DNA of 64,000 nucleotides from Phycomyces nitens (lineage: Eukaryota > Mucoromycota > Mucoromycetes > Mucorales > Phycomycetaceae), in assembly GCA_022702545.1 (NCBI GenBank), contig JAHRBC010000003.1:62001-126000 (forward strand), in the 5' to 3' direction. Position numbers and translations under genes: made by a program. The notes under the pieces were generated by a model. It was not told the DNA's origin and searched no databases. It saw nothing but the letters and a program-made list of their open reading frames with translations. How positions within the stretch are numbered: position 1 is the first letter of the stretch; each line of letters opens with the position of its first letter. Shown here one piece after another: positions 9,438 to 38,652 of the stretch.

Positions 9438-9561
9438 AAAATTAAACAATTAAAAAATTAAAAAAAATCTCTTCTTAAGCTGATTGTTACAGTTTGTCTT
9501 AATAACATACTTAGAAGGTAAAATTGTTTGCCTTGGAGGAAAGATGTTTTTATTTATTTAT

Positions 9562-12644: not shown

Positions 12645-13099
12645 GATGTTTGTGTTTGTAATATTATTATTAAAAGGAAACGAGTGTTACATGTATTTTA
12701 TTTGCTATACTTTTATAATAATAAAAAGTAATATTCTAATGCTCATTGTATCCAAACCAATAGGATGTAGTAAAATTATATTTTCGAAATAAAAAAAAAG
12801 GAAAACTGTGGAGTTGAAAAATAGACTAGCTTTCACACCAGTTCAGGGCTACTATACCACCAGTGTATTCAGGGCCGTTTTTCCAGTGCATGTTGTTGGC
12901 ATTGTGTATAGATTGAGTAAAAGGTTTGTACCATATACGTTTTATAATATTAAATAGTATTTGCTTTTGGTGTTTCTATATTATTATTATATATATTTTA
13001 ATATTATTTGAAATAAATCGAAATTATAATAAAAAATAAACCATTATTTCAAATAAATGGCAGTAAAAAAAGAATGGGTGCTAGTATATAAAGTAATAT

Positions 13100-16277: not shown

Positions 16278-17029
16278 TGACACGTGTGTTGTGGGCAGGT
16301 TCAGTTTCGACCATGAAGCCGGACCAAGGGCCCGGGCATAGACGTAGGAGGTGTTGGAGGCCAGGCTAGCCCGAGTAAGAAGTCCGAGCCGAGTGAGTTG
16401 GGCGGGTTTCCGGTGAGGTGACGTTGGCAGGGTGATCCCCGAGTTTCTATATTTTTCTTTCTTCCTAGTCTTTTCCCGTTTTTATTTTATCACATTTATT
16501 TATTTCCTTTTTTATATTATTTCCTTTTCTATTTCTTTTGTGAATCCTTGACACCTTCTTGCAGGATTGCACCATTTAACACCTCTTTAAACAATTGTCT
16601 TTGTACAATGTACTTCTTCCATTTTTATCTTTATTACTTTTACAATATTTTTATACTATACTTTATCACACTTGTCTAGAATTGCATCATTTTATTCACT
16701 TATTTCTTTATTCTTTGTTTTACATTGACTGCGATGGCACAATTCCATCCAGTTATTTTATTATTTTTGGTTATTCTTTTTCGATTCTGAATGTCTATAA
16801 AAGACATTCAGTTTTCAATCAATAAAACAGATCTTTCGTTGGGTTTAATACCGGTTCTATTTTATTTTATTTGTACTTTTCGATCTCTGAAGAGCAGTGA
16901 TATTTTGCCCGGTTACATTTTGGGAATATACTGTTGAGTTTTGTTAGTCATTTTCTTTATCTTTATTATCATTTTATTATTTGCCGTTGTTCGTCACTAT
17001 ACACAACCGTATACACACATCACGTGTCA
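16278..17029 (+). repeat. LTR3, 5' LTR of the gag-protease retroelement
   Basis: Starts TGACACGTGTGTTGTGGGC and ends CACATCACGTGTCA, with TATAAAA at 16796-16802 and AATAAA at 16821-16826. Its first 150 bases match LTR4 (38653-39331) closely, including the GACCAAGGGCCCGG block, and the two differ mainly in U3 length (752 versus 679 bp). It drives the split gag-protease gene. Confidence 0.9.
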
Positions 17030-17032
17030 AAT

Positions 17033-17049
17033 TGGAAGTCGTGCCGAGG
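17033..17049 (+). promoter_or_regulatory. Candidate primer-binding site
   Basis: TGGAAGTCGTGCCGAGG starts three bases after the 5' LTR, the expected place and initial TGG of a tRNA primer-binding site. The priming tRNA is not identified. Confidence 0.45.
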
Positions 17050-17112
17050 AATTGAATTATTCCTATTCTTTATTTTATTTATTTTTCAAAACTCTAAACT
17101 GTGCTGTGGAAA

Positions 17113-17468
17113 ATGCCATCAGTAAACATCTCCAAGTATCTCTCTGCTCCGGAAATCTTTGTGGGTGGATCCAACTCTGAGGCCCTCACCTGGTTAAAGC
17201 ATCTGGATCGATTGCGTCATGGCATTGGCATGAGCGATGAGGAGGCCATTCTGGTTGCGGCAACGCACTTTCAGGGGATCGCGGCGAAATGGTGGGCGAT
17301 CAAGGAAGACGAGGTGGTCACTTGGGAGAAGTTCATTGAAGAATTCAAGGGACAATTTGCTTCGCGCCATATGGAGGATATATGGTGGGACGAAATCGAA
17401 GAAGTCCGTCAAGGTGAAGGTCAGAGCGTAGGAGATATTGCTCTGAGGTTGCAAGAACTCTTTGGTCT
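17113..17468 (+). pseudogene. gag, 5' part (retroelement capsid protein), interrupted by element A
   Basis: From ATG 17113 (MPSVNISKYL) the frame reads a typical Ty3/gypsy capsid region with the motifs ATHFQGIAAKWW and WEKFIEEFKGQFAS (retrotrans_gag family). It is cut at 17468 by element A after TCT; the same codon frame continues in the inverted segment beginning at 29110. Removing A and undoing the inversion gives an uninterrupted frame across the junction (F-G-L-V-A-L-T-N-E-S). The product would form the particle that packages the element RNA. Confidence 0.9.
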
Positions 17469-17919
17469 CACTGGAAAAATGGGTTTGAATACTCATGTGT
17501 AAAAGTGCGGTTACTAAGGAGTAAAATTAAGATTTATTAGATACGCTGTATGGGTTTCTGTATGGGCCAAAGCCAAGTTTTACACAATGAGTTATGACCT
17601 GGTTTCTGCATGAGTATTTACTTCATGGGCTGACCAAGTGGGGGTTGTTAGTATGAGCGGGTCATTAATTTGACCTGATGTACAGAATAAAAGTCTATTT
17701 GAAACCAAGTTTCGTTGTTGTACACTCTTTATATAAGAGGAAAGTTGAAAGCAAAAGAACCTCTTGACATGATTAAAATCCGATTATACTCAGGTGGATT
17801 GAAGGCTTTCTTAATTTTTAACCAATATTTGAAGGCTATTACTGTGTAATCAAGCATTGAATGCTCCCCCATTATTTTATATCCCGTACTTATTAGGTTG
17901 TTTATGGTTTATATTTGTG

Positions 17920-18990
17920 TTTATTGGAAAGGATAGAATGGTTCTATACACGAGTTCTAATACTATTACTGTCTATCCTTGCCGCTTCTACCGGCCTACT
18001 TGATACTACTTGGATTGGGTGCTTCTCTACTGAACAATACCTGAAAATAAGGTCCGACAGCGATTTGGGTGGTTGCGGTAGTGTTCTGATATAATAAAAG
18101 TTATATTAGTGACATATATTCAAAAGTGCGGGTGCTATTCAAGATGCGAGGTATATTATACTTACATTGTAAGGGATGGACAAGAATGGACAAAGAGGGG
18201 CTGAGTTGTGCGGCATGGCATCTTGTATGATTAGGTTGACTAGAGATGGGGTAAAATAAATTATTACAGGTGAATTGAGTGATAAAATAATTAATTTACA
18301 TACCAGAAGCAGAGTTGGCGATTATAGTAGAGGGATGGTATATGGCGGCCAACAATAGCTTCTTATTAAGAGTATAAAAAATTATTAGTAAATAGCCAGA
18401 ATAATATTTTGAAAAGCACAAAGACCAAGAAACGGCATTACCATTATGATAACCAGTCGTAGATGATGAGGGAGGCAGATGAGGTAGACAGTGATGGCGG
18501 CGGCCTATTGTAGAATAAGAAACGTTAGAAAAGAAAATTATTATTTTTTGACACAAAAAGATTTTTTTTTACCATAGCACCAATGACGATACCATATAAT
18601 AGACCATGCCAGTAGAGGAGGTCTATAAGATCAAAAGAGATAGTCAGAATAAATATATAAAAAAGTATAAAAGCTAAAAGACAGCATTACCATTATGATG
18701 ACAGTTGTAGATGATAGAAGACGCAGATGGGGTATAGGGTGATTGATGGCGGCGGCCTATAGGAGAATAAGAAGCATTAGAGAAAAAAAGTTTGACACGA
18801 AAATATTTTTTTACACTGGGACTGATGACGTTATCATATAATAGGCTATGAAAGTGGAAGAGGTCTATAAAATAGAAAGAGAGAATCAGAATAATTTGCA
18901 AGATGGCACCAGCACATTTAACTGACCATGATTAGTTTGGAGGAGCAATGCAGGCAGGATGTATTGGAATGAGTGCGTGTTTATAAAGAA
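17920..18990 (-). other. Unit 3 of element A, spliced unit with two cassette-exon pairs
   Basis: TATA box TTTATAAA at 18987-18980, leader exon ending 18927, then alpha1 18864-18815 (50 nt), beta1 18756-18691 (66), alpha2 18622-18573 (50), beta2 18504-18442 (63), gamma 18361-18304 (58), delta 18239-18166 (74), epsilon 18085-17996 (90, ending TAG) and AATAAA at 17925-17920. Every boundary is a GT-AG site. Gamma, delta and epsilon read in one frame, with an ATG as the last codon of beta2 giving a peptide of about 75 aa containing LLLAAIYHPSTII and QVLFSREAP. Alpha and beta pairs are sequence repeats of each other. The product and role are unknown. Confidence 0.65.
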
Positions 18991-19400
18991 GCCGCCAATT
19001 TTTTAGTCTAAAGAGGTGTAAAAAAAGAAAGAGAAAATAGGCGCGGATATAAGGAAACAAGAGAAAGGAAAAAAGGCTAAAAAGAAAAAAATACAAGGAT
19101 ATATAATTTGAAACAGAGACAGAATAGGTGTAATGGATAGAGTCCAAAAGCAATAATGGTGCCGTTCATTAATGTGTACAAGAAGTCTTTTTGGATTTAT
19201 AAATAAAGCTGTCTTTACTAATATATAATCTGTATTTTATATTATTAAATCCTTTTGACCAACTTGTTCACTCTTCCCACTCAAATCCAATTTTTCTATC
19301 TATCTGTCTCTTGTGCGTTTTAAGTAAAAGATATGTTTAAACTTAAAGTAGTAAACGAGTATTAAATATTGTGTATTTTTGATATAATTTATAATAGAAA

Positions 19401-20515
19401 ATGTCAAACCAAAGAAGGAATATTGCTCCACGACCTGCTGACGACGATGTCAATATGCAGACGGTCATCACGAATCTCCAAGAGGATCTTGCCTCAATTA
19501 GAGGTGACATGACCACGATGAACAGAAGAATGGGGACTCTTATTGAGTCCAACCTCACTGTCATTGCTGCCACAAGTATTGTGGCTCCAGTACCTGTTCT
19601 TGCCTCTGTTGCTGCCCCAACTGCCGAGGCCACAAATGAATCGATGTCTGATGCAAAGAAACATGTGTTTGTAGGTGTCACCAGATATAATATCCTATCA
19701 ACTAAATTCTTATTTTGATCAAACAGAAAGATATTCGTGAATATTTGTGGCAGCCAAAGTTGAGGTCAAGGGCGTTGGTTGACATCCAGGCAAATAACAA
19801 CAAGCCAAGGTGGGATGTCCATACTCACTTTGACGAGAGTCCCAACAAGGAGCTGGTAGAACGTCTACTGGCTTACCTTGGGCCAAATTTTGTTGGCTCG
19901 CCCTTGAGAAGAAGTGACATTCGAGAGAAAGTCTACAGAAACTTCTGTAGCCGTCGTCAGGAGCAGAGAAAGTCTTCTGAGAAGAAGGCAGTCTCCAACG
20001 CTCGTTCGAGAAGGGCAAACCGTGAAAAAGATGTAGGTTGTATACTATTCAAACTAGAGACAAATATTAATGAATACATGTTGGATATTTGTTAGCATTT
20101 CGAACGTCGCATGACTGCCTTTCTCAAACATAAGGAGGCCATTGAGCAGGCAATGGGGCAAGTTTGTTCTGGTCTGCTTCAGAAAGAAGCAATGTCTGAA
20201 GGAGAATCAGACAACGATACTTCAAAGACTCTTGGCAAGCGTCGGGTCTCCGTTTATCGCCCAAGCTGGAGAAGCGATGAGGTAAATTATTCTGTAAACA
20301 ATATATAATAATATATTTATTAAGATATCATTTTTGAAATATTAACAAATGCTATTTAGTTCAACCGGTTTATTGAAATCGTTGACTCATTCGTTTCTCT
20401 TGACTTGGGGATGAATGCTCATCAGATGCTGTCAAGAGATCTCAAAGGAGTCAGAGACTTAGCAGTCCCTGGTGACTTGGCCGCCCGTCTGCCTCCTTGG
20501 GTCATAAGAAATTAA
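19401..20515 (+). CDS. P2, transposon-associated protein of unknown function (element A)
   Basis: Four exons, all introns in phase 0: 19401-19670, 19727-20032, 20096-20281, 20360-20515, giving 305 aa. Residues 1-90 are hydrophilic with a coiled-coil-like stretch; 91-192 contain QANNNKPRWDV, SPNKELVERLLAYLGP and RRSDIREKVYRNFCSRR, ending in a basic ARSRRANREKD block; 193-254 contain KEAMSEGESDND, a likely CK2-type acidic site, and RPSWRSDE; the last exon is FNRFIEIVDSF...DLAVPGDLAARLPPW. The basic core and conserved place beside the transposase suggest DNA binding at subterminal repeats like plant TNPA, which is inference. I do not recognise a named family. Confidence 0.85.
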
Positions 20516-20647
20516 ATAAAAAATAAATAAAAAACAATTGTTTTATTTTACTCTTGCTTACGTATTTAATCCCAAAGACATGTTTAAAGGCAATGAATGT
20601 TTTGTTTTGTTCTTTTTAAAAGAAACAAGTATTTATTTATTAATGCT

Positions 20648-23600
20648 TTAAGCATACATCTTTTTTGGTAAAGGAATGACCAGCATCTTCACATTAACAC
20701 CAGACACCAGCTCAGCAGTCGCGACTTCCAAAAGAATACGATGTACTGGCAATATACAATGATAATCATCTGGAGAGAAACTTGGCGAGCAGACCTCAAC
20801 TCCTTCGTATTCACGTGTTCTACTTGGCATGTTGATGAGCCATCTCACGAAAGCAAAGACATGAGTGGAATTATTTCCGATTGATGAACAACTGAGCTTG
20901 TGGAGGAACAAGTACTGAATTTGTCCTGTGTATGCTCGTGGAGGATCACCAACTCTACCCAGGAATAGTGCTTGAATGAATGACCCACGGTCTACGGAAC
21001 CATTTTTGCCTTTATACGTCTGGCCGAGAAGATTGATAGATTTTATCTTTGTGATATGATTATCAACAAAGATACCTGAAGACGTTGCCTGATGATAATG
21101 CTGAAGACTTGGTATACCATACGATAGCCGATAGTACTCCAACAACTGGAGATAATCTGTATCATCCATTACAGATGGCTTTCTCACCAAGAGAGGGAAG
21201 GCAGAGAGAGGAAGGGGCTCATTTCCCTTTATCGGAAATTCAGGCTTTAAAGATGCACGCACAAATAGCTGAAGTATAAATGGCGTGTGTGAAAGAGGGG
21301 CAGAGGAGGAGGTGGCAGTTGTGGATGATGATGTGAGTTTTGACAGAAGAGGACGGAAAGAAGCTTGGTTCGGACAGGAGAGCATTTTTGTACGTAGTCG
21401 CCCTTGTACATGTCTTCAACAAAAGTCTTCATGAATGTGGACTCAAATCCATCTCTTCTGTTGGTGTCGATCTTCTTCAACAGGCCATTGTACCTCTCGA
21501 ACCCAAACAGCCAATAACCATACACAGGTCCAAAATCACGAATGGTTTCGCGAAGATGGATGTGCAGGTGCATGTTGCAGGTGAGAGTGGGAGCAGGATA
21601 CAATTCTTCGCATTTCTGACAGAATCTTTCCAAATGGGCATGGGCGTCGTCAAGGTCATCAAACGTGATTGTTGGTGTTGCAAGGAGACGGCAAGCATCA
21701 ACAAAGTCGATCCAATTCTTGAACTTATCCAGAGGAAGAACGTCTCTGAGCAGCACAGGAGAATACACCAACACCCAGGATTTCCATTCATCAGCCTTCA
21801 TATATGGAAATCCTCTACTGATCTTCGTCTTCAAAATGGTGTAGTCAGTTGGCACCACCATTGATTCGGCCATTACTTGCATAGAAGCCAGCTTCCTATC
21901 CGTGATTAGACCACTAGTAGTCCACGTCTTGACCATCCTCTTGGCTGTACCCAAGAATAGGTTATGCATGGGATCAATGATCGTTCCACGTACTAGATCA
22001 AAGTATCCAAGGCGATGGAGTTGCGACCATCGAACACCATTTTCGACCTCCAACTCATGCCTTTCTGAGGGCGTACTTGCACTCTTCCACACCTCAGCAT
22101 GCAAACGGTTCTCCACACCACGACGACGACGCCACCCAGACTCATTGAACCCACGGAAGTCCACACTGCTTGTCCCAGGAAGACGAGAAAATTTGCGACA
22201 ACACTTGTAACAGGCGTTTGTGCTGTTATGGGACGTGAATCCACTTGTCTTTCTGGCTGCAGGGATGTCACATGCTACCATGAACAAAGCTGCACGGACG
22301 GTTGCTCCAGAAATGCATTCAAAGGTTGGGATAGTCATTCCCACGTACAGTTGTTCCAACTCATCAACCAAAGGCTTGAGATAATGGTTAATCTCTTCGG
22401 ACTTTGGCTCCTTTGGCCCAGGCATGAGTCCAACAAGGATAGTGTTCTCTGCCTTAAACCGCTCCTCACGAGGCAAGTTGTTAACCACCAAGTAAATGGC
22501 CCCACAAGAGTATGTGACCCTGTCAAAGGGCTGGAACCAATCAATGTTCAACGTCAACATCAAAGAACGAGGATGGGCAACAAAAGATTCACCACTGATG
22601 TCTTTCAACTCCTTCCACATAACACCGTCAAAGATGTCGCACATTGTATCCATGATCTTGAGCTCCTGATTCCAGTGTTGAATGCTTGCTTCAAAATCAG
22701 GGCGAAGGAAAAGAATTTTCAAGGCATGCTTCAATGACTGGTATTGGAACACGCGCTTGGGAACCAATGCTCCAGACGATGTAACCTTGGTCAACTTGCA
22801 GTTGCAGGTCAGACGTGCACCAACTTTCGTGAAAACACAGTGAGGGGGACAGACTGGTTTTCTTCATAAACTGCGTGGCAATCAGGACAGGCTACGAATC
22901 TCCTGATACCGTTGGAAATCGCAGAATATCCTGTCATTCTTTGCAGACCAAGAAGACTGGATGGGAGCTGGAAATCCTGCTCGTAAATCGTCAAGAGTGT
23001 GTTGATGAACTCGATCAAGACAACAGCACCCTTGTTGACCACATAGCGGGATGCAAAGAGGACAACAAAAACGGCAATAAACCTGTGCACAGGATTTTCA
23101 GGCATATTGGGGGTTGGGAAAGGGTCTATTTTAAAATCGAAAAAATTAATATTCAATTCTTTTCAGGCTTTTTTCTTTGCTGCTTTCTCTTTGCTTTTGG
23201 CTATGCAACACGCACCTTCACTGTCGAATTCCTCAACCTCGATCTCAACTTCATCTTCGCCTTCATCTTCTTCATCATCGCTTTCGTCATCGCGTTCGCC
23301 ATCGGCATTGGCCTCATTAGCAACTGAATTGCCCTCATCCAGCATTACATCGGCATCCCAAAAGGTGAGTTGGTCTGACCGTCCAATACATCCGAGGGTC
23401 CAGACTGTTGAGTAGAAATGACCGCTTATAGAATATAATAGTTTCTTAGTCTCTACTTTTTTTCAAATAAACTTTTCTTACATTGAATATCAATATCCAT
23501 GTCTGCTTGAGTGTCTGTGTTTCATACCGCCGAAATTATTATACAATACATAAAAATAAACACTGAAATTATCATACCAATCTCATTTGAGTTGCTCTGT

Positions 23601-23725
23601 TCAATTCTTGCTCTCTTGCTATGACGCTGAGCAGTTCGGCTTGCTACCAATGTGTAGCCTTGGCCATTGTTGTTGCATCTATTGCAATAGCACTTGGTGT
23701 TGTAAAAAGTATTTGAAGATGACAT
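20648..23725 (-). pseudogene. Tnp2-type transposase, element A, two homopolymer frameshifts
   Basis: Same four-exon gene as in B (29355-32432). Compared with B it lacks one base in a C-run near 22850 and one in an A-run near 21390, each shifting the frame, so the core is read in three pieces (23156-22809, 22794-21247, 21385-20648). Outside these sites it is almost identical to B and has all catalytic motifs. Single-base homopolymer losses in otherwise pristine repeats are also a common assembly or sequencing error, so the gene may be intact in reality. Confidence 0.85.
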
Positions 23726-24019
23726 TGTGTTTGTGTTTATAATGTTAAAACAAAAAGGAAACGAGTGTTACATATACTTTATTTATTAATATTTTATAGT
23801 GGTAAAAAAGCAACGTTGTTTTATTCTTTTTAATCAAGCCAATGGGGTCAAGCAAAAGAACGTTTTTAATCAGAACACAAAAAAAGGTGTTGAGCTGCAA
23901 ATTTGCCCTAATTTTCCTCAGGTAGACAGCTTTGCTCACACATGAGTATTCAGACCCATTTTTCCAGTGAATATTATTATTGTTTTGTAAAAAAATATTT
24001 TCTCACAAATTATATCCAG

Positions 24020-24824
24020 AAACTTATTGAGAATAAGATGTGGAAGAAAGACCTTGACTCCGAAGATCCAGCTCTGATTGCTGAGAACGAAGGCAAGCAG
24101 AAATGGAATAAGGATGAGAGGATCGACCACCCAGACAATGTCAGGGTCATTAACTACATGAGAGACTACATTCTCTCACAGCCTCGTGCTGCTGGTTTTT
24201 GGCCTGGCATGGTAGTGCAAAAACTAAAAAATAACTATAAGTACTACCATCGCGTTGCAAAGATGACTGAAGAGCAGTCTATTGCAAAGAAGAAAAAGGT
24301 TCGGGCCAACAGCAGGCTTGTCGAGGTTAGTATAAAGACAATATGATATTTTTGACTTAATCTGAAAATTTTTCTAGATCCACTTGCGCAGGGTGGCGGT
24401 CTACACGCGTCACTGGAGGGCAATTGATGAGGAGATGGGCCATAAGCCTGAAAACTCTGAGGAGATGGCCTATCTCCATGTCCTCCAAAAGGATGTGATG
24501 TCTGATGGTGAGTCGGGCATGGAAGACGTTGCACCTGGTATCACCATGCGTGTTCTCCATGTTGCTCGTCCCAGCTGGAGAAGCGATGAGATAATTAATA
24601 TTTTGTAGAGTGATGTGCTGAGTGCTGATAAAAGACTGATAAATTTAATATAGTTGAACCGGCTTCTGGAGGTCATTGACCGTTTTTCAAGAGAGGATGA
24701 TCTGAAACGGTCTGGACCAAAGACAAAGACAAGAATGCCCAGACAGCAAACATCAGTCAAGGAGATTCCTGCCCCAAGTCACCTGACTTTGAATTTGCCT
24801 GTCTGGACATTCAAAAATGAATAA
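24020..24824 (+). pseudogene. P2 of element C, exons 2-4 (separated from exon 1)
   Basis: Exon 2 begins at 24020 after the acceptor TATATCCAG and encodes KLIENKMWKKD...KWNKDERIDHPDNVRVINYMRDYI and a basic KKKKVRANSR end. Exon 3 (24378-24588) has LQKDVMSDGESGMED and ARPSWRSDE; exon 4 (24654-24824) ends LNLPVWTFKNE. Exon 1 is at 35991-35620 on the other strand: element B landed in intron 1, and the later inversion moved the parts apart. The frame is otherwise intact. More diverged from A/B/E/G than those are from each other. Confidence 0.85.
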
Positions 24825-24919
24825 ATCTTTGTTTTTGTCTTTTTTACTTTTTAAACACATGATTCGCAAAACAACCTATAAAATTATAATTAAAACCAAG
24901 AGAGATAAGATAAATATAT

Positions 24920-27900
24920 TTAGGCGGAAACCTTTCTAGGCAAGGGGACAACTAGTTTTTTGTTAATGTTACTACTAGATTTATAATCCACAATTGCAAC
25001 AGGCAGGAGAATCCGATGGACAGGAAGAATGCTTTGAAAGTCAAGAGCTGAAAATTCGTCCTTGTGAATCTCAATGCCTTCAGCCTCTCTGGTGGTGTCT
25101 GACGTAGTTTTGAACCAGTTCACAAAAGCAAAGGTGTGTTGACTGTTATAGGCATTTCCACGATGTGAAGAAGAAACAGCAGGGCTAAATGCGTGAACAA
25201 ATAGATACTGAATCTCTCCAACATACGCGTACACTGCCTCGGTCTTTTCCTCAACAAATAATGCTTGGATGTATGATCCTTTTTGATTTCTACCACTCCT
25301 TCCTTTGAACATCTGGCCTAGAATACTGACAGACTTGAGCATTTCGATCCAGTCATTGACAAAAGCAGAGGAAGCCATGGTGTCATTACAGCCTTTGATG
25401 GACCTGTCATTGTAGGCAACCTGGTAATATTCCACCAAACAGTCATATTCTGCCCTACTCATCATACTCATGGGCTTCTTTTTCAATGGGAGTGTTGATG
25501 GTGGCAAAGGCTCGTTACCATATACTGTTATCAATGGATTTTCAGCATATTCAACAAAATCAGGCAATGAGAAGGTAGAGAAATAATGAGAATGTGCTGG
25601 CGTGGATATAGTGTCTGGGGTATTGGTAAACATGCGAAAGATATCTGACAAATGATATCCATTGGCTGTGCTCAGAAACCCACGAACAAAATCTGCCTTT
25701 CGTGTATCCTCAACAAAGCTTCTCATGTATGTGGCCTCAAATCCACCTTTCCTGTTCGTGTTGATGTTTTTGAGGATACTGTTGTACCTCTCAAAACCAA
25801 AAAGCCAGTAGCCATAAACTGGACCAAAGTCCAGAACCGTTTCACGAAGGTGAAGATGGAGGTGCATGTTGGGAGAGAGGAGGTCAGACTCATATAATTG
25901 CTCACAACCTTTGCCAAACTGCTCCAGATTGCGATGCGCTTCCTCAATATCGTCCTCAGAGATACTTGGCTTGGTCAAAAAACGGCAGGCATTTACAAAA
26001 AACATCCAATTTTTGAACATTGGCAGTGGCAGCACGTTCTTCAATACCACGGGAGAGTATACCAAACACCACGACTTCCACTCATCAGCTTTCATGAAGG
26101 GGAACCCCTTTGCAATCTTCGTCTTTAATGGAGTATAATCTGGCGGCAACACCATCTTTTCCACCATCTTCTGCATGGCAACGAGACTCTTATCGTTGAT
26201 TACTCCATCTGCAACCTATCTCTCCATCATCCTCTTGGCAGTGCCTAAGAAGAGATTGTGCATTGGATCAATGATCGTGCAGCGGACAACGTCAAAGTAC
26301 TGGAGACGATGCAGTTCGGACCAGCGAACACCACTGGCAACTTCAAGGCGCTGCCTCTCAGCTTGAGTGGCTGCATTTCTCCAGACCTCAGCATCCTTAC
26401 GATTATCATTCTTAGTGCGAAGGAGCCACTTTGAGAAATCAAATCCAGAATAATCAACAGAGTTCGTTCCAGCTAACCGATTGAACCGACGATTACACTT
26501 ATGACAAGCATTTGTACTTGTATGGGATGTGAACCCACATACTTTCCTTGCGGCAGGGATGTCACAAGCGACCAGGAAAAGAGCGGCATGGACAGTTGCA
26601 CCAGATGGGCATTGATGAGTCTTCATTCTGATTCCTTTATAGAGATCCTCCAACTCATTGACCAGTGGTTTGAGATAGTGATTTATCTCTGAGGTTTTTG
26701 CTTCTCTGGGCCCAGGCATCAAACCAACGAGGATGATATTTTCCTTCTTGAATCTGACATCACGAGGAAGGTTGTTGACAGCAAGGTAGATGGCACCACA
26801 AGAATACGTGACACCATCAAATGGTTGGAACCAGTCAATGTTTAATGTCAGCATAAGAGAGCGCTCGCTGTCAACAAAGGGGATTCCATTCACATCAGGC
26901 AACTCGTTCCACATCGCACCATCATATATATCAAACATAGTCTTTTCCACCTTGGGACCACGATTCCAAGAGTTGATCTGTGATTCAAAATCAGGCCGAG
27001 AAAAGAGTGTTTGGATAGAGTGTTTGATTGACTGGTAGATATACGATTTTTTTGGGACAGATGACAAATTGGACTTGAACAAGCCATGGCCACACAAGGC
27101 GCTGTTTTCAAACTTGTCAAATGTACAGAAAAGAGGTGCACCATCGTTCTCGTAAATGCTGTAAAATTCACCACATGCAACATACTTCTTGATTCCCTTT
27201 GTCAATGCATTCATTCCTGCCATACTTTTGAGACCAGAGACACTTGATAGGACTCGGAAAGAATCGCCAAAAAAATCCAGGATCTTGTTCACAATTGCAA
27301 TCAAGATAATCGCGCCTTCATTGACAACATAAAAGGAAATGAACAGGGCAAGAGCCTTGACTATAAAGCCGTGAATGAAACTCAATTCTGAGTTGAATTC
27401 TAGAAACATATTAATCAAAAAAAAAGCATATTAATATATAATATTTATATAGATAGAGTGATTATCAGCTCAGATACTATACAGACCTTCATCATCATTC
27501 ATCTCGTCTTCACTTTCACTGTCAGAGTCAGAGTCAGAGTCACCAACTGAGCTACATTCATCCTCTGCACCAAAAATGGCATCGGACTCAGAGAGAGATA
27601 GGTTTCTAATGGGTTCTTGTACCCCCTCATATTCTTCAACGCCGTTTTCCAAGTCTGCCCAGGTGTAAAAAAAATTAATTTAATAAAAAAACAATAAAAT
27701 TTTAAGAAATCCTTACCACCAGACTCAAAATCCATGGCCTCTACATTGTCTACGGCCTCAAAGTATTGCTCTTCAGTATCAACAATTTCCATTACTATTT
27801 AATTCAAAAATGTATTTATTATTAATTAAATAATTTTCAAATTAAAATATAAAATATATCTTACATCTACCACCGAAAAACTGTTTTTGGCATCTTCTTT

Positions 27901-28014
27901 AAGCATATGACGCTTAAATGTTTGAGCTGTGAGAAAATCAAATCCACCCTCTTTGTTCTTGCAAATAGAACATCTACATTCTTTTGTTCTTGTAGATTTA
28001 CGGATAGGAGCCAT
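24920..28014 (-). pseudogene. Tnp2-type transposase, element C, one nonsense codon
   Basis: Exon 1 starts at 28014 (MAPIRKSTRT, then CRCSICKNKEGGF and a downstream His), exons 2 and 3 are acidic (about 27800-27720 and 27660-27484), and the core exon runs from about 27400 to the stop at 24920. Core motifs NIDWFQPFDGVTYSCGAIY, ACDIPAARK, DPMHNLFLG and GPVYGYWLFGFERYN are all present. Codon 26218-26216 is TAG where every relative has TGG (…RMMERW…), and the frame continues unbroken after it. A single G to A change therefore inactivates an otherwise complete gene of about 950 codons. Confidence 0.9.
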
Positions 28015-28266
28015 TGTTTAATAAATAATTGAAATGTTTTGGTTTAACAGTAAAGAAGATATATTCAGGTACAGTTTATTTGATATACTTTGAGTTTAAT
28101 AATTATTTTTTTCATGCTACACAATCGCCTACACCCAATAAAATCTATCAAAAATATTTTTTCTCTCTGAACTCACAAAAAAGGGCCTGAGCTAGAAAAT
28201 TGACCTTTATATCCCATACCTACTGTATCAACTACACATATGGGAATCGGGGGTATTTTTGCAGTG

Positions 28267-28582
28267 TCCGATGTAGTTTGACAGGGAGTTGTCTTGGAGG
28301 CTGACGCACCTGCCGAGCCTTCTGAGTCCCAACAGGGACCAACAGTTCCACAACCGGAGCCATGCTTACGTCCTGCTGGCCATACACCAATTGACCAGGG
28401 AAAGTGTTGAACTGACCCTGCATGTACTGTTGCTGTTGAAGCGGCAGTACCAACTTGACTGCTTCAGCCGAATACACCGGCGAAGTCACCACCATATTGA
28501 TCGCGGGATCCTCCTGCTCCACGAACACCTGAGATTGATTACGGGCATCAGCAAAACTTACTGATGTCCTCTGCCTTTTCCC
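28267..28582 (-). pseudogene. Protease frame, N-terminal part (between gag and element C)
   Basis: Reading on minus in the -1 frame relative to gag from the slip site, the frame continues through FVEQEDPAINMVVTSPVYS and a Gln-rich segment to the GGA target of element C at 28269-28267. Beyond the element the same frame resumes at 37488 (…K-L-H-R then R-D-V-W-E-K-L). It links the gag zinc knuckle to the aspartic protease. No known domain is seen in this linker. Confidence 0.82.
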
Positions 28583-29110
28583 AAAACATCTTCATCGCTC
28601 ACTTTCCTAGGACAGCTGGCCTGAATGTGACCATCTTCCTCACACCAGGAACAGCGCAGCACTTGGGAACCAGCAGAATCGCCCTCACCAGGGGCAAAAC
28701 CCGAACCAGAGGCGAAACCAGGACCAGAAAAACCAGGACCAGAGAAAACATGACCAGAGAAACCAGGACCAGAACCAAAACCAGGCGCACCAAAACCAGA
28801 AGCATAAGTGTCCACCAAGTGGACCTTCATCGTCTTGAACTCCTGAATGAGCTCAGACAGAGAGTTCTCGACGGAACTTCTCTCCAAACCAGAACCTTCA
28901 GAGCGGGAGTTTCCTCTGCCAGAAACCGAACCAAACCGAGAACCAGAACGACAATACTTCTCCTCTACAGACTCGACCTTGATGGCCAACTTGACCATCT
29001 CTTCCCAAGACCGCGGGACACCAATCTTCTCAACTTCGTAGGCCACCTCCCTCCTGAGGGCCTTCAACAAGATTCTTACTTTCTGCGACTCATTCGTGAG
29101 CGCAACCAGA
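28558..29110 (-). pseudogene. gag, 3' part with zinc knuckle, inverted relative to its 5' part
   Basis: Continuation of gag from 17468. The first complete motifs are LTNESQKVRILLKALRREV and WEEMVKLAIKVESVEEKY, typical of the end of a gypsy capsid domain, followed by a Gly/Ser/Phe-rich repeat region and a CCHC zinc knuckle CSWCEEDGHIQASC. The gag frame stops at TAA 28560-28558. The segment is inverted because it lies between the recombined elements A and B. The open frame on the opposite strand (Arg/Thr-rich) is a shadow of the repeats. Confidence 0.9.
28576..28582 (-). promoter_or_regulatory. Candidate -1 ribosomal frameshift site GGGAAAA
   Basis: In the gag frame the codons read TTG GGA AAA, i.e. 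the canonical slippery heptamer G GGA AAA of the X XXY YYZ type, 15 nt before the gag stop codon. A -1 slip enters the frame that carries the protease. A downstream pseudoknot was not evaluated. Confidence 0.7.
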
Positions 29111-29354
29111 CACTGGAAAAATGGGTCTGAATACTCATGTGTGAGCAAAGCTGTCTACCTGAGGAAAATTAGGGCAAATTTGCAGCTCAACACCTTTTTT
29201 TGTGTTCTGATTAAAAACGTTCTTTTGCTTGACCCCATTGGCTTGATTAAAAAGAATAAAACAACGTTGCTTTTTTACCACTATAAAATATTAATAAATA
29301 AAGTATATGTAACACTCGTTTCCTTTTTGTTTTAACATTATAAACACAAACACA

Positions 29355-32300
29355 ATGTCATCTTCAAATACTTTTTACAACACCAAGTGCTATTGCAATA
29401 GATGCAACAACAATGGCCAAGGCTACACATTGGTAGCAAGCCGAACTGCTCAGCGTCATAGCAAGAGAGCAAGAATTGAACAGAGCAACTCAAATGAGAT
29501 TGGTATGATAATTTCAGTGTTTATTTTTATGTATTGTATAATAATTTCGGCGGTATGAAACACAGACACTCAAGCAGACATGGATATTGATATTCAATGT
29601 AAGAAAAGTTTATTTGAAAAAGTAGAGACTAAGAAACTATTATATTCTATAAGCGGTCATTTCTACTCAACAGTCTGGACCCTCGGATGTATTGGACGGT
29701 CAGACCAACTCACCTTTTTGGGATGCCGATGTAATGCTGGATGAGGGCAATTCAGTTGCTAATGAGGCCAATGCCGATGGCGAACGCGATGACGAAAGCG
29801 ATGATGAAGAAGATGAAGGCGAAGATGAAGTTGAGATCGAGGTTGAGGAATTCGACAGTGAAGGTGCGTGTTGCATAGCCAAAAGCAAAGAGAAAGCAGC
29901 AAAGAAAAAGCCTGAAAAGAATTGAATATTAATTTTTTCGATTTTAAAATAGACCCTTTCCCAACCCCCAATATGCCTGAAAATCCTGTGCACAGGTTTA
30001 TTGCCGTTTTTGTTGTCCTCTTTGCATCCCGCTATGTGGTCAACAAGGGTGCTGTTGTCTTGATCGAGTTCATCAACACACTCTTGACGATTTACGAGCA
30101 GGATTTCCAGCTCCCATCCAGTCTTCTTGGTCTGCAAAGAATGACAGGATATTCTGCGATTTCCAACGGTATCAGGAGATTCGTAGCCTGTCCTGATTGC
30201 CACGCAGTTTATGAAGAAAACCAGTCTGTCCCCCCTCACTGTGTTTTCACGAAAGTTGGTGCACGTCTGACCTGCAACTGCAAGTTGACCAAGGTTACAT
30301 CGTCTGGAGCATTGGTTCCCAAGCGCGTGTTCCAATACCAGTCATTGAAGCATGCCTTGAAAATTCTTTTCCTTCGCCCTGATTTTGAAGCAAGCATTCA
30401 ACACTGGAATCAGGAGCTCAAGATCATGGATACAATGTGCGACATCTTTGACGGTGTTATGTGGAAGGAGTTGAAAGACATCAGTGGTGAATCTTTTGTT
30501 GCCCATCCTCGTTCTTTGATGTTGACGTTGAACATTGATTGGTTCCAGCCCTTTGACAGGGTCACATACTCTTGTGGGGCCATTTACTTGGTGGTTAACA
30601 ACTTGCCTCGTGAGGAGCGGTTTAAGGCAGAGAACACTATCCTTGTTGGACTCATGCCTGGGCCAAAGGAGCCAAAGTCCGAAGAGATTAACCATTATCT
30701 CAAGCCTTTGGTTGATGAGTTGGAACAACTGTACGTGGGAATGACTATCCCAACCTTTGAATGCATTTCTGGAGCAACCGTCCGTGCAGCTTTGTTCATG
30801 GTAGCATGTGACATCCCTGCAGCCAGAAAGACAAGTGGATTCACGTCCCATAACAGCACAAACGCCTGTTACAAGTGTTGTCGCAAATTTTCTCGTCTTC
30901 CTGGGACAAGCAGTGTGGACTTCCGTGGGTTCAATGAGTCTGGGTGGCGTCGTCGTCGTGGTGTGGAGAACCGTTTGCATGCTGAGGTGTGGAAGAGTGC
31001 AAGTACGCCCTCAGAAAGGCATGAGTTGGAGGTCGAAAATGGTGTTCGATGGTCGCAACTCCATCGCCTTGGATACTTTGATCTAGTACGTGGAACGATC
31101 ATTGATCCCATGCATAACCTATTCTTGGGTACAGCCAAGAGGATGGTCAAGACGTGGACTACTAGTGGTCTAATCACGGATAGGAAGCTGGCTTCTATGC
31201 AAGTAATGGCCGAATCAATGGTGGTGCCAACTGACTACACCATTTTGAAGACGAAGATCAGTAGAGGATTTCCATATATGAAGGCTGATGAATGGAAATC
31301 CTGGGTGTTGGTGTATTCTCCTGTGCTGCTCAGAGACGTTCTTCCTCTGGATAAGTTCAAGAATTGGATCGACTTTGTTGATGCTTGCCGTCTCCTTGCA
31401 ACACCAACAATCACGTTTGATGACCTTGACGACGCCCATGCCCATTTGGAAAGATTCTGTCAGAAATGCGAAGAATTGTATCCTGCTCCCACTCTCACCT
31501 GCAACATGCACCTGCACATCCATCTTCGCGAAACCATTCGTGATTTTGGACCTGTGTATGGTTATTGGCTGTTTGGGTTCGAGAGGTACAATGGCCTGTT
31601 GAAGAAGATCGACACCAACAGAAGAGATGGATTTGAGTCCACATTCATGAAGACTTTTGTTGAAGACATGTACAAGGGCGACTACGTACAAAAAATGCTC
31701 TCCTGTCCGAACCAAGCTTCTTTCCGTCCTCTTCTGTCAAAACTCACATCATCATCCACAACTGCCACCTCCTCCTCTGCCCCTCTTTCACACACGCCAT
31801 TTATACTTCAGCTATTTGTGCGTGCATCTTTAAAGCCTGAATTTCCGATAAAGGGAAATGAGCCCCTTCCTCTCTCTGCCTTCCCTCTCTTGGTGAGAAA
31901 GCCATCTGTAATGGATGATACAGATTATCTCCAGTTGTTGGAGTACTATCGGCTATCGTATGGTATACCAAGTCTTCAGCATTATCATCAGGCAACGTCT
32001 TCAGGTATCTTTGTTGATAATCATATCACAAAGATAAAATCTATCAATCTTCTCGGCCAGACGTATAAAGGCAAAAATGGTTCCGTAGACCGTGGGTCAT
32101 TCATTCAAGCACTATTCCTGGGTAGAGTTGGTGATCCTCCACGAGCATACACAGGACAAATTCAGTACTTGTTCCTCCACAAGCTCAGTTGTTCATCAAT
32201 CGGAAATAATTCCACTCATGTCTTTGCTTTCGTGAGATGGCTCATCAACATGCCAAGTAGAACACGTGAATACGAAGGAGTTGAGGTCTGCTCGCCAAGT

Positions 32301-32432
32301 TTCTCTCCAGATGATTATCATTGTATATTGCCAGTACATCGTATTCTTTTGGAAGTCGCGACTGCTGAGCTGGTGTCTGGTGTTAATGTGAAGATGCTGG
32401 TCATTCCTTTACCAAAAAAGATGTATGCTTAA
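29355..32432 (+). CDS. Tnp2-type (CACTA/EnSpm, Plavaka-like) transposase, element B, intact
   Basis: Exons 29355-29502, 29566-29598, 29654-29863 and 29953-32432 join in frame to 956 codons plus stop, which validates the splice model. Exon 1: CYCNRCNNN...RTAQRHSKRAR, a possible zinc-binding and nuclear-localisation module. Exon 3: Asp/Glu-rich (DESDDEEDEGEDEVEIEVEE). Exon 4: a Cys-rich stretch (VACPDCHAVYEE...CNCKL), then NIDWFQPFDRVTYSCGAIY, LVGLMPGPKEPKSEEINHYL, ACDIPAARKTSGF with CYKC, DPMHNLFLGTAKRM, and GPVYGYWLFGFERYNG. These fit the DDE core of Transposase_21 proteins, which cut DNA at CACTA-type ends. The last 250 residues are less conserved and end LVIPLPKKMYA. Confidence 0.95.
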
Positions 32433-32564
32433 AGCATTAATAAATAAATACTTGTTTCTTTTAAAAAGAACAAAACAAAACATTCATTGCCTTTAAACAT
32501 GTCTTTGGGATTAAATACGTAAGCAAGAGTAAAATAAAACAATTGTTTTTTATTTATTTTTTAT

Positions 32565-33679
32565 TTAATTTCTTATGACCCAAGGAGGCAGACGGGCGGC
32601 CAAGTCACCAGGGACTGCTAAGTCTCTGACTCCTTTGAGATCTCTTGACAGCATCTGATGAGCATTCATCCCCAAGTCAAGAGAAACGAATGAGTCAACG
32701 ATTTCAATAAACCGGTTGAACTAAATAGCATTTGTTAATATTTCAAAAATGATATCTTAATAAATATATTATTATATATTGTTTACAGAATAATTTACCT
32801 CATCGCTTCTCCAGCTTGGGCGATAAACGGAGACCCGACGCTTGCCAAGAGTCTTTGAAGTATCGTTGTCTGATTCTCCTTCAGACATTGCTTCTTTCTG
32901 AAGCAGACCAGAACAAACTTGCCCCATTGCCTGCTCAATGGCCTCCTTATGTTTGAGAAAGGCAGTCATGCGACGTTCGAAATGCTAACAAATATCCAAC
33001 ATGTATTCATTAATATTTGTCTCTAGTTTGAATAGTATACAACCTACATCTTTTTCACGGTTTGCCCTTCTCGAACGAGCGTTGGAGACTGCCTTCTTCT
33101 CAGAAGACTTTCTCTGCTCCTGACGACGGCTACAGAAGTTTCTGTAGACTTTCTCTCGAATGTCACTTCTTCTCAAGGGCGAGCCAACAAAATTTGGCCC
33201 AAGGTAAGCCAGTAGACGTTCTACCAGCTCCTTGTTGGGACTCTCGTCAAAGTGAGTATGGACATCCCACCTTGGCTTGTTGTTATTTGCCTGGATGTCA
33301 ACCAACGCCCTTGACCTCAACTTTGGCTGCCACAAATATTCACGAATATCTTTCTGTTTGATCAAAATAAGAATTTAGTTGATAGGATATTATATCTGGT
33401 GACACCTACAAACACACGTTTCTTTGCATCAGACATCGATTCATTTGTGGCCTCGGCAGTTGGGGCAGCAACAGAGGCAAGAACAGGTACTGGAGCCACA
33501 ATACTTGTGGCAGCAATGACAGTGAGGTTGGACTCAATAAGAGTCCCCATTCTTCTGTTCATCGTGGTCATGTCGCCTCTAATTGAGGCAAGATCCTCTT
33601 GGAGATTCGTGATGACCGTCTGCATATTGACATCGTCGTCAGCAGGTCGTGGAGCAATATTCCTTCTTTGGTTTGACAT
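32565..33679 (-). CDS. P2, transposon-associated protein of unknown function (element B)
   Basis: Mirror copy of the element A gene with the same four phase-0 exons and the same 305-aa product, starting MSNQRRNIAPRPADDDV at 33679. One visible difference is His to Arg at the end of exon 1. Convergent with the transposase, with about 130 bp between the two stop codons. Intact. As for A, a DNA-binding accessory role is inferred from the basic core and constant linkage, not from homology. Confidence 0.85.
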
Positions 33680-34089
33680 TTTCTATTATAAATTATATCA
33701 AAAATACACAATATTTAATACTCGTTTACTACTTTAAGTTTAAACATATCTTTTACTTAAAACGCACAAGAGACAGATAGATAGAAAAATTGGATTTGAG
33801 TGGGAAGAGTGAACAAGTTGGTCAAAAGGATTTAATAATATAAAATACAGATTATATATTAGTAAAGACAGCTTTATTTATAAATCCAAAAAGACTTCTT
33901 GTACACATTAATGAACGGCACCATTATTGCTTTTGGACTCTATCCATTACACCTATTCTGTCTCTGTTTCAAATTATATATCCTTGTATTTTTTTCTTTT
34001 TAGCCTTTTTTCCTTTCTCTTGTTTCCTTATATCCGCGCCTATTTTCTCTTTCTTTTTTTACACCTCTTTAGACTAAAAAATTGGCGGC

Positions 34090-35165
34090 TTCTTTATAAA
34101 CACGCACTCATTCCAATACATCCTGCCTGCATTGCTCCTCCAAACTAATCATGGTCAGTTAAATGTGCTGGTGCCATCTTGCAAATTATTCTGATTCTCT
34201 CTTTCTATTTTATAGACCTCTTCCACTTTCATAGCCTATTATATGATAACGTCATCAGTCCCAGTGTAAAAAAATATTTTCGTGTCAAACTTTTTTTTTC
34301 TCTAATGCTTCTTATTCTCCTATAGGCCGCCGCCATCAATCACCCTATACCCCATCTGCGTCTTCTATCATCTACAACTGTCATCATAATGGTAATGCTG
34401 TCTTTTAGCTTTTATACTTTTTTATATATTTATTCTGACTATCTCTTTTGATCTTATAGACCTCCTCTACTGGCATGGTCTATTATATGGTATCGTCATT
34501 GGTGCTATGGTAAAAAATCTTTTTGTGTCAAAAAAATAATAATTTTCTTTTCTAACGTTTCTTATTCTACAATAGGCCGCCGCCATCACTGTCTACCTCA
34601 TCTGCCTCCCTCATCATCTACGACTGGTTATCATAATGGTAATGCCGTTTCTTGGTCTTTGTGCTTTTCAAAATATTATTCTGGCTATTTACTAATAATT
34701 TTTTATACTCTTAATAAGAAGCTATTGTTGGCCGCCATATACCATCCCTCTACTATAATCGCCAACTCTGCTTCTGGTATGTAAATTAATTATTTTATCA
34801 CTCAATTCACCTGTAATAATTTATTTTACCCCATCTCTAGTCAACCTAATCATACAAGATGCCATGCCGCACAACTCAGCCCCTCTTTGTCCATTCTTGT
34901 CCATCCCTTACAATGTAAGTATAATATACCTCGCATCTTGAATAGCACCCGCACTTTTGAATATATGTCACTAATATAACTTTTATTATATCAGAACACT
35001 ACCGCAACCACCCAAATCGCCGTCGGACCTTATTTTCAGGTATTGTTCAGTAGAGAAGCACCCGATCCAAGTAGTATCAAGTAGGCCGGTAGAAGCAGCA
35101 AGGATAGACAGTAATAGTATTAGAACTCGTGTATAGAACCATTCTATTCTTTCCAATAAACACAA
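34090..35165 (+). other. Unit 3 of element B, spliced unit with two cassette-exon pairs
   Basis: TATA box at 34093-34100, leader exon ending 34153, alpha1 34216-34265, beta1 34326-34391, alpha2 34460-34509, beta2 34576-34638, gamma 34719-34776, delta 34841-34914, epsilon 34995-35084 (TAG stop) and AATAAA at about 35155. The donors are GTAAAAA or GTAATG after alpha and beta, GTATG after gamma and GTAAG after delta. The terminal frame is open: beta2 ends ATA ATG, followed by the LLLAAIYHPSTII, DAMPHNSAPLCPF and GPYFQVLFSREAP blocks. Divergent from P2, with promoters about 400 bp apart. Confidence 0.65.
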
Positions 35166-35619
35166 ATATAAACCATAAAGAACCTAATAAGTACGGGATA
35201 TAAAATAATGGGGGAGCATTCAATGCTTGATTACACAGTAATAGCCTTCAAATATTGGTTAAAAATTAAGAAAGCCTTCAATCCACCTGAGTATAATCGG
35301 ATTTTAATCATGTCAAGAGGTTCTTTTGCTTTCAACTTTCCTCTTATATAAAGAGTGTACAACAACGAAACTTGGTTTCAAATAGACTTTTATTCTGTAC
35401 ATCAGGTCAAATTAATGACCCGCTCATACTAACAACCCCCACTTGGTCAGCCCATGAAGTAAATACTCATGCAGAAACCAGGTCATAACTCATTGTGTAA
35501 AACTTGGCTTTGGCACATACAGAAACCCATACAGCGTATCTAATAAATCTTAATTTTACCCCTTAGTAACCGCACTTTTACACATGAGTATTCAGACCCA
35601 TTTTTCCAGTGATTCATAC

Positions 35620-35991
35620 CAAGACAATCGCACGCATATCACTGGGACTAATTGAGCTGGAGGGGCCAACAGAAGGAACCATTCCAACGGAACCAGCTTG
35701 GCCAAGAGGGAGCTGGCTCTGGACACCACTGGCATGGGCTTCTATGAGTGTACTCATGGTCTTGTTGGTCTTGCCAGTGATGTCATAGACCATTCCCATT
35801 CTGGACTTGAGGAACCTCAAGTCTTCAAGGATAGCGGCCATTTCTGTCCTGCCTTGGCTACTTCCCTCACCAGTACTAGGAGATCTAGGCATAATCTCAT
35901 GCTGGCTGATACGACCAGCAACAACACGGTCAATTGGAGCAGCTGGATTTGCTCTGGCTTTGCGTCCTGAGTTTGCTTGGGTTGGGGACAT
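35620..35991 (-). pseudogene. P2 of element C, exon 1 (separated from exons 2-4)
   Basis: Starts MSPTQANSGRKARANP at 35991 and ends at the donor TTG/GTATGAAT (35620). The sequence has a Ser/Pro/Gly-rich head and a coiled-coil-like stretch (MAAILEDLRFLKSRMGMVYD). The intron that follows is cut after eight bases by element B, and its other half lies at 23970-24019. The junction of the two intron halves is seamless, so this is the missing first exon of the gene at 24020-24824. Confidence 0.88.
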
Positions 35992-36229
35992 TTTCTAAAT
36001 AAATATTTTTAAAATAAAATAATAATAATACATAGATTAATATATTTTTATTATATATATCCTTGAATATATAGACTTACATAATAAGCTGTAGTAGTGG
36101 GTGTAGTGTCAGGTAAGAACAATAATATTACTTGTCAAAAAAACTATATTTATATATTGAAAAAAAGTATATTTTCGGAGTACAGCAAAATAAAATGAAT
36201 TTGTGGACACACAGTTTTCATAATCCCAT

Positions 36230-36865
36230 TATTCTCATAATTTATTAGGGCTTACTATAATCTAAAAATGCGTATGGATTCTTTTTTCCCAATTTTCCCT
36301 TTTTCTCTTTCTTTTTTCTTTTTGCTTCTTTTATACTCTCTGGTAAGTATTTAAAAAATTTTCACGCAATTAAAAACAACCTTTAACATTTTTTCAATTA
36401 TCTAAAAGATGTCCTATAGTCACTTTTATTTATGCTTACACAAGAAAAACGTAAATAGGCGCACTATTTTTTATTGCTGTTGCTAATCAGTAATCTTCAT
36501 CTTGTAGATTCAAAAACAACTCCTTTCAATTGCAATGGCCAAAGATGACAATGATGAAGTTGAATGGAGGGAATGTACTTGGTATGTTTGAATATTTTAT
36601 CACTATTAATACTAATATATTCTGTCTTTACTATCAGCTCTTTATATTAAACAAAATTGCCGCGTTTTAACAAAGATATGGAATACCCAACAAACCAGTT
36701 TGTCTTGGTAAGTAATCAGTCATTCCTATTACTTTTCTAACAGAAAATATAGATATCTTTTCTATTACACGTACACATTTTTTGATGGCTATATCATTAT
36801 CTATCATGAAATACTGTTTGGTATGCCTGAAAATTCGCTCTCAAGATATGGAGCATCTACTCTAT
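36230..36865 (+). other. Unit 3 of element C, candidate spliced transcription unit
   Basis: Several GT-AG introns fit by eye: CTCTG/GTAAGT at 36341 to AAAAG at 36408, CTTG/GTATGT at 36581 to ATCAG at 36638, CTTG/GTAAGT at 36710 to TAACAG at 36742, and GTTTG/GTATGC at 36819. The position and outward direction match unit 3 of the A/B/E/G/H elements but the exons are not similar in sequence. No conserved reading frame was found. The rest of 36866-37487 holds no recognisable gene. Confidence 0.35.
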
Positions 36866-37487
36866 TCTGTCAACCACTTCAGCCATTCAAAGCAGTAGTT
36901 AAAGAGTCGGCCATGCTCTCGACCCATGTTTTAAAAAGGTAAACATAAGTATACCGTGAATATAGCTATAGCCATGAATCTAGACCAAATTACTAGGCTA
37001 TATATTATGAGAAAAATTTTTATCAATAAAAACATATTCGTAAACTATTTGCCATAATCTATTATAAAGAAGTATATAATAAATTACCAATTGAAAGTAT
37101 TCAAAGCCTCAAAAATATTAAACAGCCAATAAATACACGTCTGGTGGAAGATAGTTGAATGGATAGACAAGGGAAAGTAATGAAAGTTGAATCTTGATCT
37201 GTCAAAAATAGATCTTATTATTGACCTTGAAATAATAATCCATGTAACGTTATACCGAAAAGAGATAAAATATACACTTTCAGTTACAGTTCTGTACCTC
37301 CTTGAGGTTAATGAGCCGACATGCCCAAAACTAGAGCATTATATCTGCCGAATTACTGCAACATCTCATATGACTTGTCATTCATATCTGGAGAGTAATA
37401 TTTCTATTTAATTCTAGGATTTTTTATTTATTTGCCTCGAGATTTCACTTACTATCACATCTGGGAATCGTACATTTTTTTGCAGTG

Positions 37488-38521
37488 GGAGGGATGTATG
37501 GGAGAAGTTGAAGAGTGCTGATGCTGGTCTCTCAGTTGCGGACTGGTTGGTGTTGGACCGTGGTGCGTCCAAGGACATGAAGGATGGTTTGCGGTTTTTG
37601 TCTGGCCGAAAGAGGAAGGTGGTTGTTCCGGAGGTCAACATGGTGAACAATGAAGAGTCGTCAGAGGAATCGGTGGAGTTTTACTCGGATGCCTGGGAGT
37701 CGCAGAGTGTGCAGTCTGGTGAGGTGGTCAATGATTCTGAAATTGACTTGGGTGGTTATGAGAGCGATGACATGGTGTACGACTATGAGTACGACTATAA
37801 AAAGTTTGTCTCTAGTCAACCTCTGAGGGCGCCAATCACAATCAACGACCAAGTTATTCCAGCCATTTTTGACTCTGGGGCCAGTGTGTCCGTTATCAGC
37901 AAGACATTGGCAGTAAGGCTTGGGTTGGTCCCGAATGGTGACAAGATTCCGTTGTCAAGTCTGGATGGTCAGGCCCATGCTCCGTGTGATATCACAATGA
38001 ATGTTCCAATTCGTGTGGCTGGCAAGCTGAGGCCGGATACAATGTGTATCAAGGATGGCAAGGTGAATCCCGATCTGTGTCTCTTGGGTATGTCCTGGTT
38101 CCGGATGTACGATGTTCAGCTGCAGCTGAAGGATTCTCGAATAGTCATACCGACTAAGCACGGCACGGGCAGCGTGGAGCTTCAAGGCCAGTCAAGAAGC
38201 TACCCGTTGGTGAATATGGCAGTGCCTGTCTTTTCGGTCGGTGTCCGAAAGGAGTCTGAAGTGGGGGAAGGGCCCACAGGTAAAGAAGCCCTTCAGGAAG
38301 ATCGTCGGTTGGACGATGAGGTTGAGGTGATGTTGGCAGGGGTGAGTGAGGAGGAGTCCTCAGGGCAGTTTGGCGAGGAAGATCTGTGTGGGGGAGAGTC
38401 TCTTCCCAGTTTTGGGATGTCATTGGTTTCTGCTTCTGGTGCGTTTGGTGACCTTGGAGGTCTTTCCGGTCCGGTTTTTACCAGCAAGTATGGTCCATCT
38501 CTCTCTCGGATTGTTGGTTAA
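37488..38521 (+). pseudogene. Retroelement aspartic protease, C-terminal part
   Basis: Resumes after element C with RDVWEKLKSADAG and runs to the stop at 38521. After an acidic, Tyr-rich spacer it contains IPAIFDSGASVSVISKTLA, the D-S-G active site of a retropepsin, followed by LGMSWFRMYDVQL, equivalent to the hydrophobic-Gly motif of the fold. The protein then has about 120 residues of acidic, low-complexity tail instead of reverse transcriptase. The stop is only 131 bp from the 3' LTR, so the element never had room for pol. The protease would act on Gag in the particle. Confidence 0.9.
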
Positions 38522-38640
38522 TCAGGTTTTCACTCCTTTTGGTTTTCTTCTCTTTCCTTTCCTGTCCGATCCTTTTTATGCACCTTGTTTTCCGTTTCTC
38601 TATGCTTTGGTTTTCTCTTTCCCCGATGGTCTCAACCTAG

Positions 38641-38652
38641 ACGGGGGAGATT
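38641..38652 (+). promoter_or_regulatory. Polypurine tract of the retroelement
   Basis: ACGGGGGAGATT directly precedes the TGACACG start of the 3' LTR, the position of the plus-strand primer. Confidence 0.7.

Follow-up and report, generated by a model that had tools for sequence, protein, structure and literature searches.

Two closely related copies of a DNA transposon, which we call elements A and B, lie in opposite orientations in a 64,000-nucleotide stretch of the Phycomyces nitens genome (positions 62001-126000 of contig C5, in a 49 Mb assembly of 11 contigs; "the window" hereafter). Based on their flanking sequences, on uninterrupted copies of their target sites elsewhere in the genome, and on the variants they carry, we consider it likely that A and B inserted independently and that the 5141 bp in between were inverted by ectopic homologous recombination between them with a crossover outcome. 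An earlier note on this DNA had proposed such an event from the flanks of the two elements, and on re-reading the sequence we found the coordinates, lengths, orientations, and flanking triplets of A and B to be as it described:

17469..23969, plus strand: element A, CACTA/EnSpm-type DNA transposon, 6501 bp, in the gag region of a retroelement (recognized by its termini and 99.66% identity to B)
29111..35611, minus strand: element B, inverted copy of A, 6501 bp, in a further transposon, element C
17466..17468, unstranded: TCT, left flank of A, half of the gag target duplication (partner AGA at 29108-29110)
29108..29110, unstranded: AGA, flank of B, the reverse complement of TCT
23970..23972, unstranded: AAT, right flank of A, half of the element C target duplication (partner ATT at 35612-35614)
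35612..35614, unstranded: ATT, right flank of B
23970..29110, unstranded: inverted segment, 5141 bp, consisting of a part of C (23970-28266) and a part of the retroelement (28267-29110)

The two elements differ at 22 alignment columns, comprising 10 single-nucleotide polymorphisms (SNPs) and 12 indel columns. All 10 SNPs fall within element positions 1-2200, and none within 2201-6501. Both ends of A and of B consist of CACTGGAAAAATGGGT in inverted orientation, forming terminal repeats that start with CACTG. An open reading frame (ORF) of B at 29922-32432 (window plus strand, 836 amino acids) matches the Pfam family Transposase_21/tnp2 (PF02992; E=2.9e-20, 72.8 bits against a cut-off of 28.6), and we therefore assign A and B to the CACTA/EnSpm type. 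The database protein closest to this transposase, with a listed identity of 100% and 98.9% by tblastn against the window, belongs to Mucor saturninus. CACTA/EnSpm transposons are characterized by terminal inverted repeats starting with CACT(A/G) and by 3-bp target site duplications. The A/B family has CACTG termini, 3-bp duplications, and a Tnp2-type transposase, as in known CACTA/EnSpm transposons, and we noticed nothing out of the ordinary within the element itself.

Target duplications and the original order of the targets

The flanks at present read TCT/A/AAT and AGA/B/ATT, an exchanged pattern in which the duplications of A and B match once the inversion is undone. Each target is itself an element present in many copies, so that one assembly is enough to argue for the uninverted state and no second strain is needed. 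The pieces of the two targets in the window are as follows:

16278..17468, plus strand: 5' long terminal repeat (LTR) and start of the retroelement, up to A; followed by 29110..28267 read backwards in all seven loci L002-L008
28267..29110, minus strand: middle piece of the gag-containing retroelement, flipped
37488..39331, plus strand: remainder of the retroelement, with an aspartyl protease ORF (37508-38521) and the 3' LTR (to 39331); adjoins the 28267 end in L002-L008
23970..28266, minus strand: first part of element C, flipped, with a Tnp2-like transposase gene up to the B target site; CACTG terminus at 28266
35612..37487, plus strand: second part of element C, ending at 37487

Elsewhere in this genome both broken elements have uninterrupted copies, in which the original joins can be read to the base. 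At least eight retroelement loci are listed outside the window, and in all seven that we fetched (L002-L008), 17468 joins 29110 (read backwards) with a single TCT, while the sequence at 28267 continues directly into 37488 and onward. The earlier note had held that undoing the inversion rejoins gag in frame; we checked this join at the DNA level, where it is contiguous in every fetched locus. For element C, at least 39 copies are listed outside the window and 29 were fetched, and all 29 have the C flanks of B (35612 to 23970 read backwards) fused with a single ATT, in agreement with the seamless join that had been predicted. In the search tables, 31 of the 39 listed matches pair with the other flank at an overlap of exactly 3 bp; the remaining eight have no partner among those listed, and one of them (C6:2044727, L050) proved contiguous when read. 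At the B target site an uninterrupted copy of C reads, by eye, TTG/GTATG...CAG/GAAC, and because of this GTATG...CAG the site looks like intron 1 of the second gene of C, as also proposed earlier.

A further junction, absent from the earlier note, concerns C itself, which is nested in the same retroelement as A. Its target duplications are GGA at 28267-28269 (minus strand) and GGA at 37488-37490, and they pair only after the inversion is undone. Both junctions predicted by an inversion of 23970-29110 are thus found elsewhere in the genome, and the junction between C and the retroelement agrees with them, which supports the attribution of the rearrangement to recombination between inverted copies. 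The nesting also gives an order of events: the retroelement came first, followed by C and then B, with A arriving at any time after the retroelement and the inversion coming last.

Census of target duplications in the A/B family

The 32-nt terminus of the family occurs 109 times in the genome (53 + 56). We read 94 of these, all but six of the termini listed. Facing partners could be assigned to 76, giving 38 pairs, and 18 have no partner. Thirty-three of the 38 pairs span 6473-7126 bp and make up the full-length set, whereas five were excluded for spanning 12.8-18.8 kb (two of these are matched, three are not). The 3-bp duplications are matched in 24 of the 33 full-length copies and mismatched in nine. 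A and B form the sole reciprocal pair among these nine, and likewise among all 12 mismatched members of the 38. With equal base frequencies, about 0.009 reciprocal 3-bp matches are expected among the 36 pairs that nine mismatched copies can form, an expectation that leaves adjacency, orientation, and target continuity out of account.

The partnerless mismatched copies (C4:40914, C6:2066838, C7:44365, C7:2986175, C7:4126372, C8:2078485, and C8:2353716) may have arisen by direct-repeat deletion, translocation, or insertion without a duplication, or may reflect mutation or misassembly. We considered further exchanges among them and rejected the idea, as no second reciprocal pair occurs in the 12 mismatched of 38. 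C1:339560 and C8:2353716 show a half-match, with ATG common to one side, and the mismatch of C8:2078485 involves one base. At C7:4126372 both flanks lie, by eye, within one Tnp2 coding stretch without a duplication, and so a mismatch alone is no proof of exchange.

The window also holds three complete elements, D, E, and F, with matched duplications (AAA, CAT, and TAC, respectively). E (6075-12888) and F (54029-60838) are an inverted pair 41 kb apart and 99.1% alike, and we examined them as a candidate second inversion. This was rejected because the duplications of both are matched and the host element of F continues on either side of it.

Mosaic ancestry of element A

We compared eight chosen full-length copies along their whole length and 24 copies at their left ends. 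Among the eight, A and B alone share 4462T and 5862T (element positions). A shares 464G, 2037T, and 2195A not with B but with another copy, C5:23648-30153 (C5:30153 below), and 1443A is common to all three and is present in 3 of the 24 left ends. Among these left ends, 464G occurs only in A and C5:30153. The combination of 2037T and 2195A is likewise confined to these two genome-wide, among 50 and 51 listed sites. Among copies with an entry at both sites, that of 4462T and 5862T is confined to A and B. C5:30153 is the closest copy to the left 2.2 kb of A, nearer than B, and lacks 4462T and 5862T. In the right part (positions 2201-6501), A and B differ by 0 SNPs, whereas the 27 remaining pairs among the eight copies differ by 1 to 26. 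Judged by these variants, A is a mosaic that carries variants of C5:30153 over much of its left part and those of B in its right part, with the change in ancestry placed as follows:

19663..21930, plus strand: interval of the ancestry switch in A, from C5:30153-like to B-like (element positions 2195-4462; approximately 31150-33417 in B)

No mosaic can be seen in B, since no SNP separates it from A on the right. We rejected the use of the SNP-free right part alone as proof of conversion, since the listed full-length matches are 99-100% alike there, and used only shared variants. The mosaic in A moderately favors homologous recombination over aberrant transposition.

When each of the eight aligned copies is compared with the majority base, C-to-T (or G-to-A) changes at CpG make up 45 of 57 substitutions; these 45 changes fall on 360 CpG cytosines, compared with 5 such changes at 2267 other cytosines. 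This looks like the result of deamination of methylated CpG in transposons.

Proposed history and alternative explanations

The observations suggest a history in which A and B, independent insertions of one young CACTA family, would have entered their targets in opposite orientations, A in the gag region of the retroelement and B in C, which already lay inside the same retroelement. Non-allelic recombination between them, resolved as a crossover, would then have flipped the 5141 bp and left each element with one flank from each target. Most simply, the same event may have copied the right-hand sequence of B onto that of A (or the reverse) as a gene-conversion tract: a double-strand break in the right part of A, repaired from B with crossing over, would give the flip and the main mosaic together. 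We infer that crossover and conversion were one event.

Several points weigh against this history. Since no SNP distinguishes A from B over the right 4.3 kb, the crossover cannot be placed, and the mosaic could stem from a separate conversion. The first 100 bp of A (17469-17568) has 17T, 52A, and 97G, which are absent from B and C5:30153 and common to older-looking copies such as C1:9468887 and C1:46339; A has therefore received a patch from other copies on at least one further occasion, and conversion also happens apart from the inversion. All of the sites 464, 591, 1443, 2037, 2195, 4462, and 5862 except 464 are hypermutable CpG, and the variants taken singly recur in other copies (4462T in 4 of 51, 5862T in 6 of 53, 2037T in 3 of 50, 2195A in 5 of 51, and 591A in 5 of 24). 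Three carriers of 4462T or 5862T (C4:8621346, C1:3994415, and C4:7598565) are listed at one site only. Together with the unrelated left patch of A, these carriers weaken the argument from the mosaic. Finally, seven full-length copies besides A and B are mismatched without a reciprocal partner, and the evidence comes from a single assembly of one strain.

The present flanks are also exactly what would result if the assembler had flipped the 5.1 kb segment between the inverted repeats and the real chromosome had matched duplications. A and B are SNP-free over their last 4.3 kb, where only longer reads could phase the orientation of the segment, and the nine mismatched copies among 33 make some misjoins in the family possible. 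However, the other 24 copies, similar as they are, were assembled with matched duplications on both sides, as was the inverted pair E and F, and the eight compared copies retain their own SNPs, so that repeats were not generally collapsed. We regard an assembly error as unlikely and infer that the segment has been assembled in its true orientation. Hybrid element insertion, in which one element present on both sister chromatids contributes an end from each and these transpose together to a nearby site, would likewise produce an inversion, two copies, and exchanged duplications. According to PMC2775673, such an insertion differs from ectopic recombination solely in leaving identical rather than chimeric copies. 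The close relationship of A and B, which share 4462T and 5862T, suits this mechanism, and since A has conversion patches unrelated to B, its left part could have been converted later. Against it, the left 2.2 kb of A is closest to C5:30153 rather than to B, which calls for an extra, independent conversion; that all 10 SNPs between A and B lie in the first third carries little weight, as the family is generally more variable there. As described in the same paper, hybrid element insertion and reversed ends transposition can make inversions bounded by two copies, and they predict either identical copies or, for copies that begin at separate sites, deletions or duplications, neither of which fits well here. 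We rate hybrid element insertion slightly below an assembly error. A transposase could also have cut beside the two facing right ends, the freed segment being end-joined backwards without homologous recombination. The breaks do coincide with element ends, but neither junction has a footprint or a lost base relative to the uninterrupted sites, and the mosaic is left unexplained, making this route very improbable.

Relation to known inversions

The closest parallel is inversion 2z3 of Drosophila buzzatii, generated by the transposon Galileo, for which PMC2775673 describes opposite copies of a DNA transposon, exchanged duplications, and chimeric elements. Both cases have two opposite copies at the breakpoints, exchanged target duplications, and junctions without loss, and a chimeric structure is visible here in A alone. 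By comparison with that account, the transposon here is of the CACTA/EnSpm type rather than the P superfamily, and the host is a fungus. Inversion 2z3 is chromosomal and was mapped cytologically, whereas the segment here is 5 kb long, lies inside nested transposons, and is known in its inverted state from one assembly. Two hallmarks of inversion by ectopic recombination, namely opposite homologous copies at the breakpoints and exchanged duplications with the targets otherwise intact, are found here. The inversion is a clean case of an already known kind, differing in species and transposon family and not in kind, and leaves the view of how transposon-mediated inversions arise unchanged. Among the papers listed in a literature search, no title dealt with an inversion mediated by CACTA elements in Mucor, although such a paper may still exist.

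What the locus offers is an unusually clean record of a transposon-mediated inversion. The use of nested repeats as self-controls, combined with a duplication census, could be applied to any repeat-rich genome, and such a census could count inversions, deletions, and translocations caused by ectopic recombination. Because inverted repeats of 6.5 kb that are so similar and so close could recombine repeatedly, we also considered whether the 5.1 kb segment still flips, the nuclei of one multinucleate mycelium carrying both orientations and A and B being held identical at their right ends by conversion. This idea is conceivable, although we think it doubtful.

Other features of the window

Within C, the ORF at 26216-27418 matches Transposase_21, whereas that at 24920-26176 matches only DUF4218, below the Pfam cut-off. 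A protein from a draft-assembly relative (P0014) was tried as a second view of the locus and rejected: it matches an element at 41913-43517 at 95.7%, not C.

The aspartyl protease ORF of the host retroelement (37508-38521) matches Pfam Asp_protease_2 (E=4.1e-10). Without its insertions, the retroelement (16278-39331) has about 2.4 kb between its LTRs, occupied by a gag-like ORF and the aspartyl protease ORF. As this leaves little space for a polymerase, the element is probably non-autonomous. Its 5' LTR (16278-17029) and 3' LTR (38653-39331) are only about 68% alike. L002-L004 have the same 5' LTR type as the window copy together with the other type at the 3' end, and in L006 both LTRs are of the second type. 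Such an unlike pairing of 5' and 3' LTRs is odd for an LTR element.

Much of the window consists of nested CACTA insertions near the contig end. D (43557-49810) and F are apparently nested in other CACTA elements, and a second copy of the right end of E (12086-12849) follows 1.2 kb later in the same orientation (13323-14082, 98.7%), with its own CACTG terminus at 14095.

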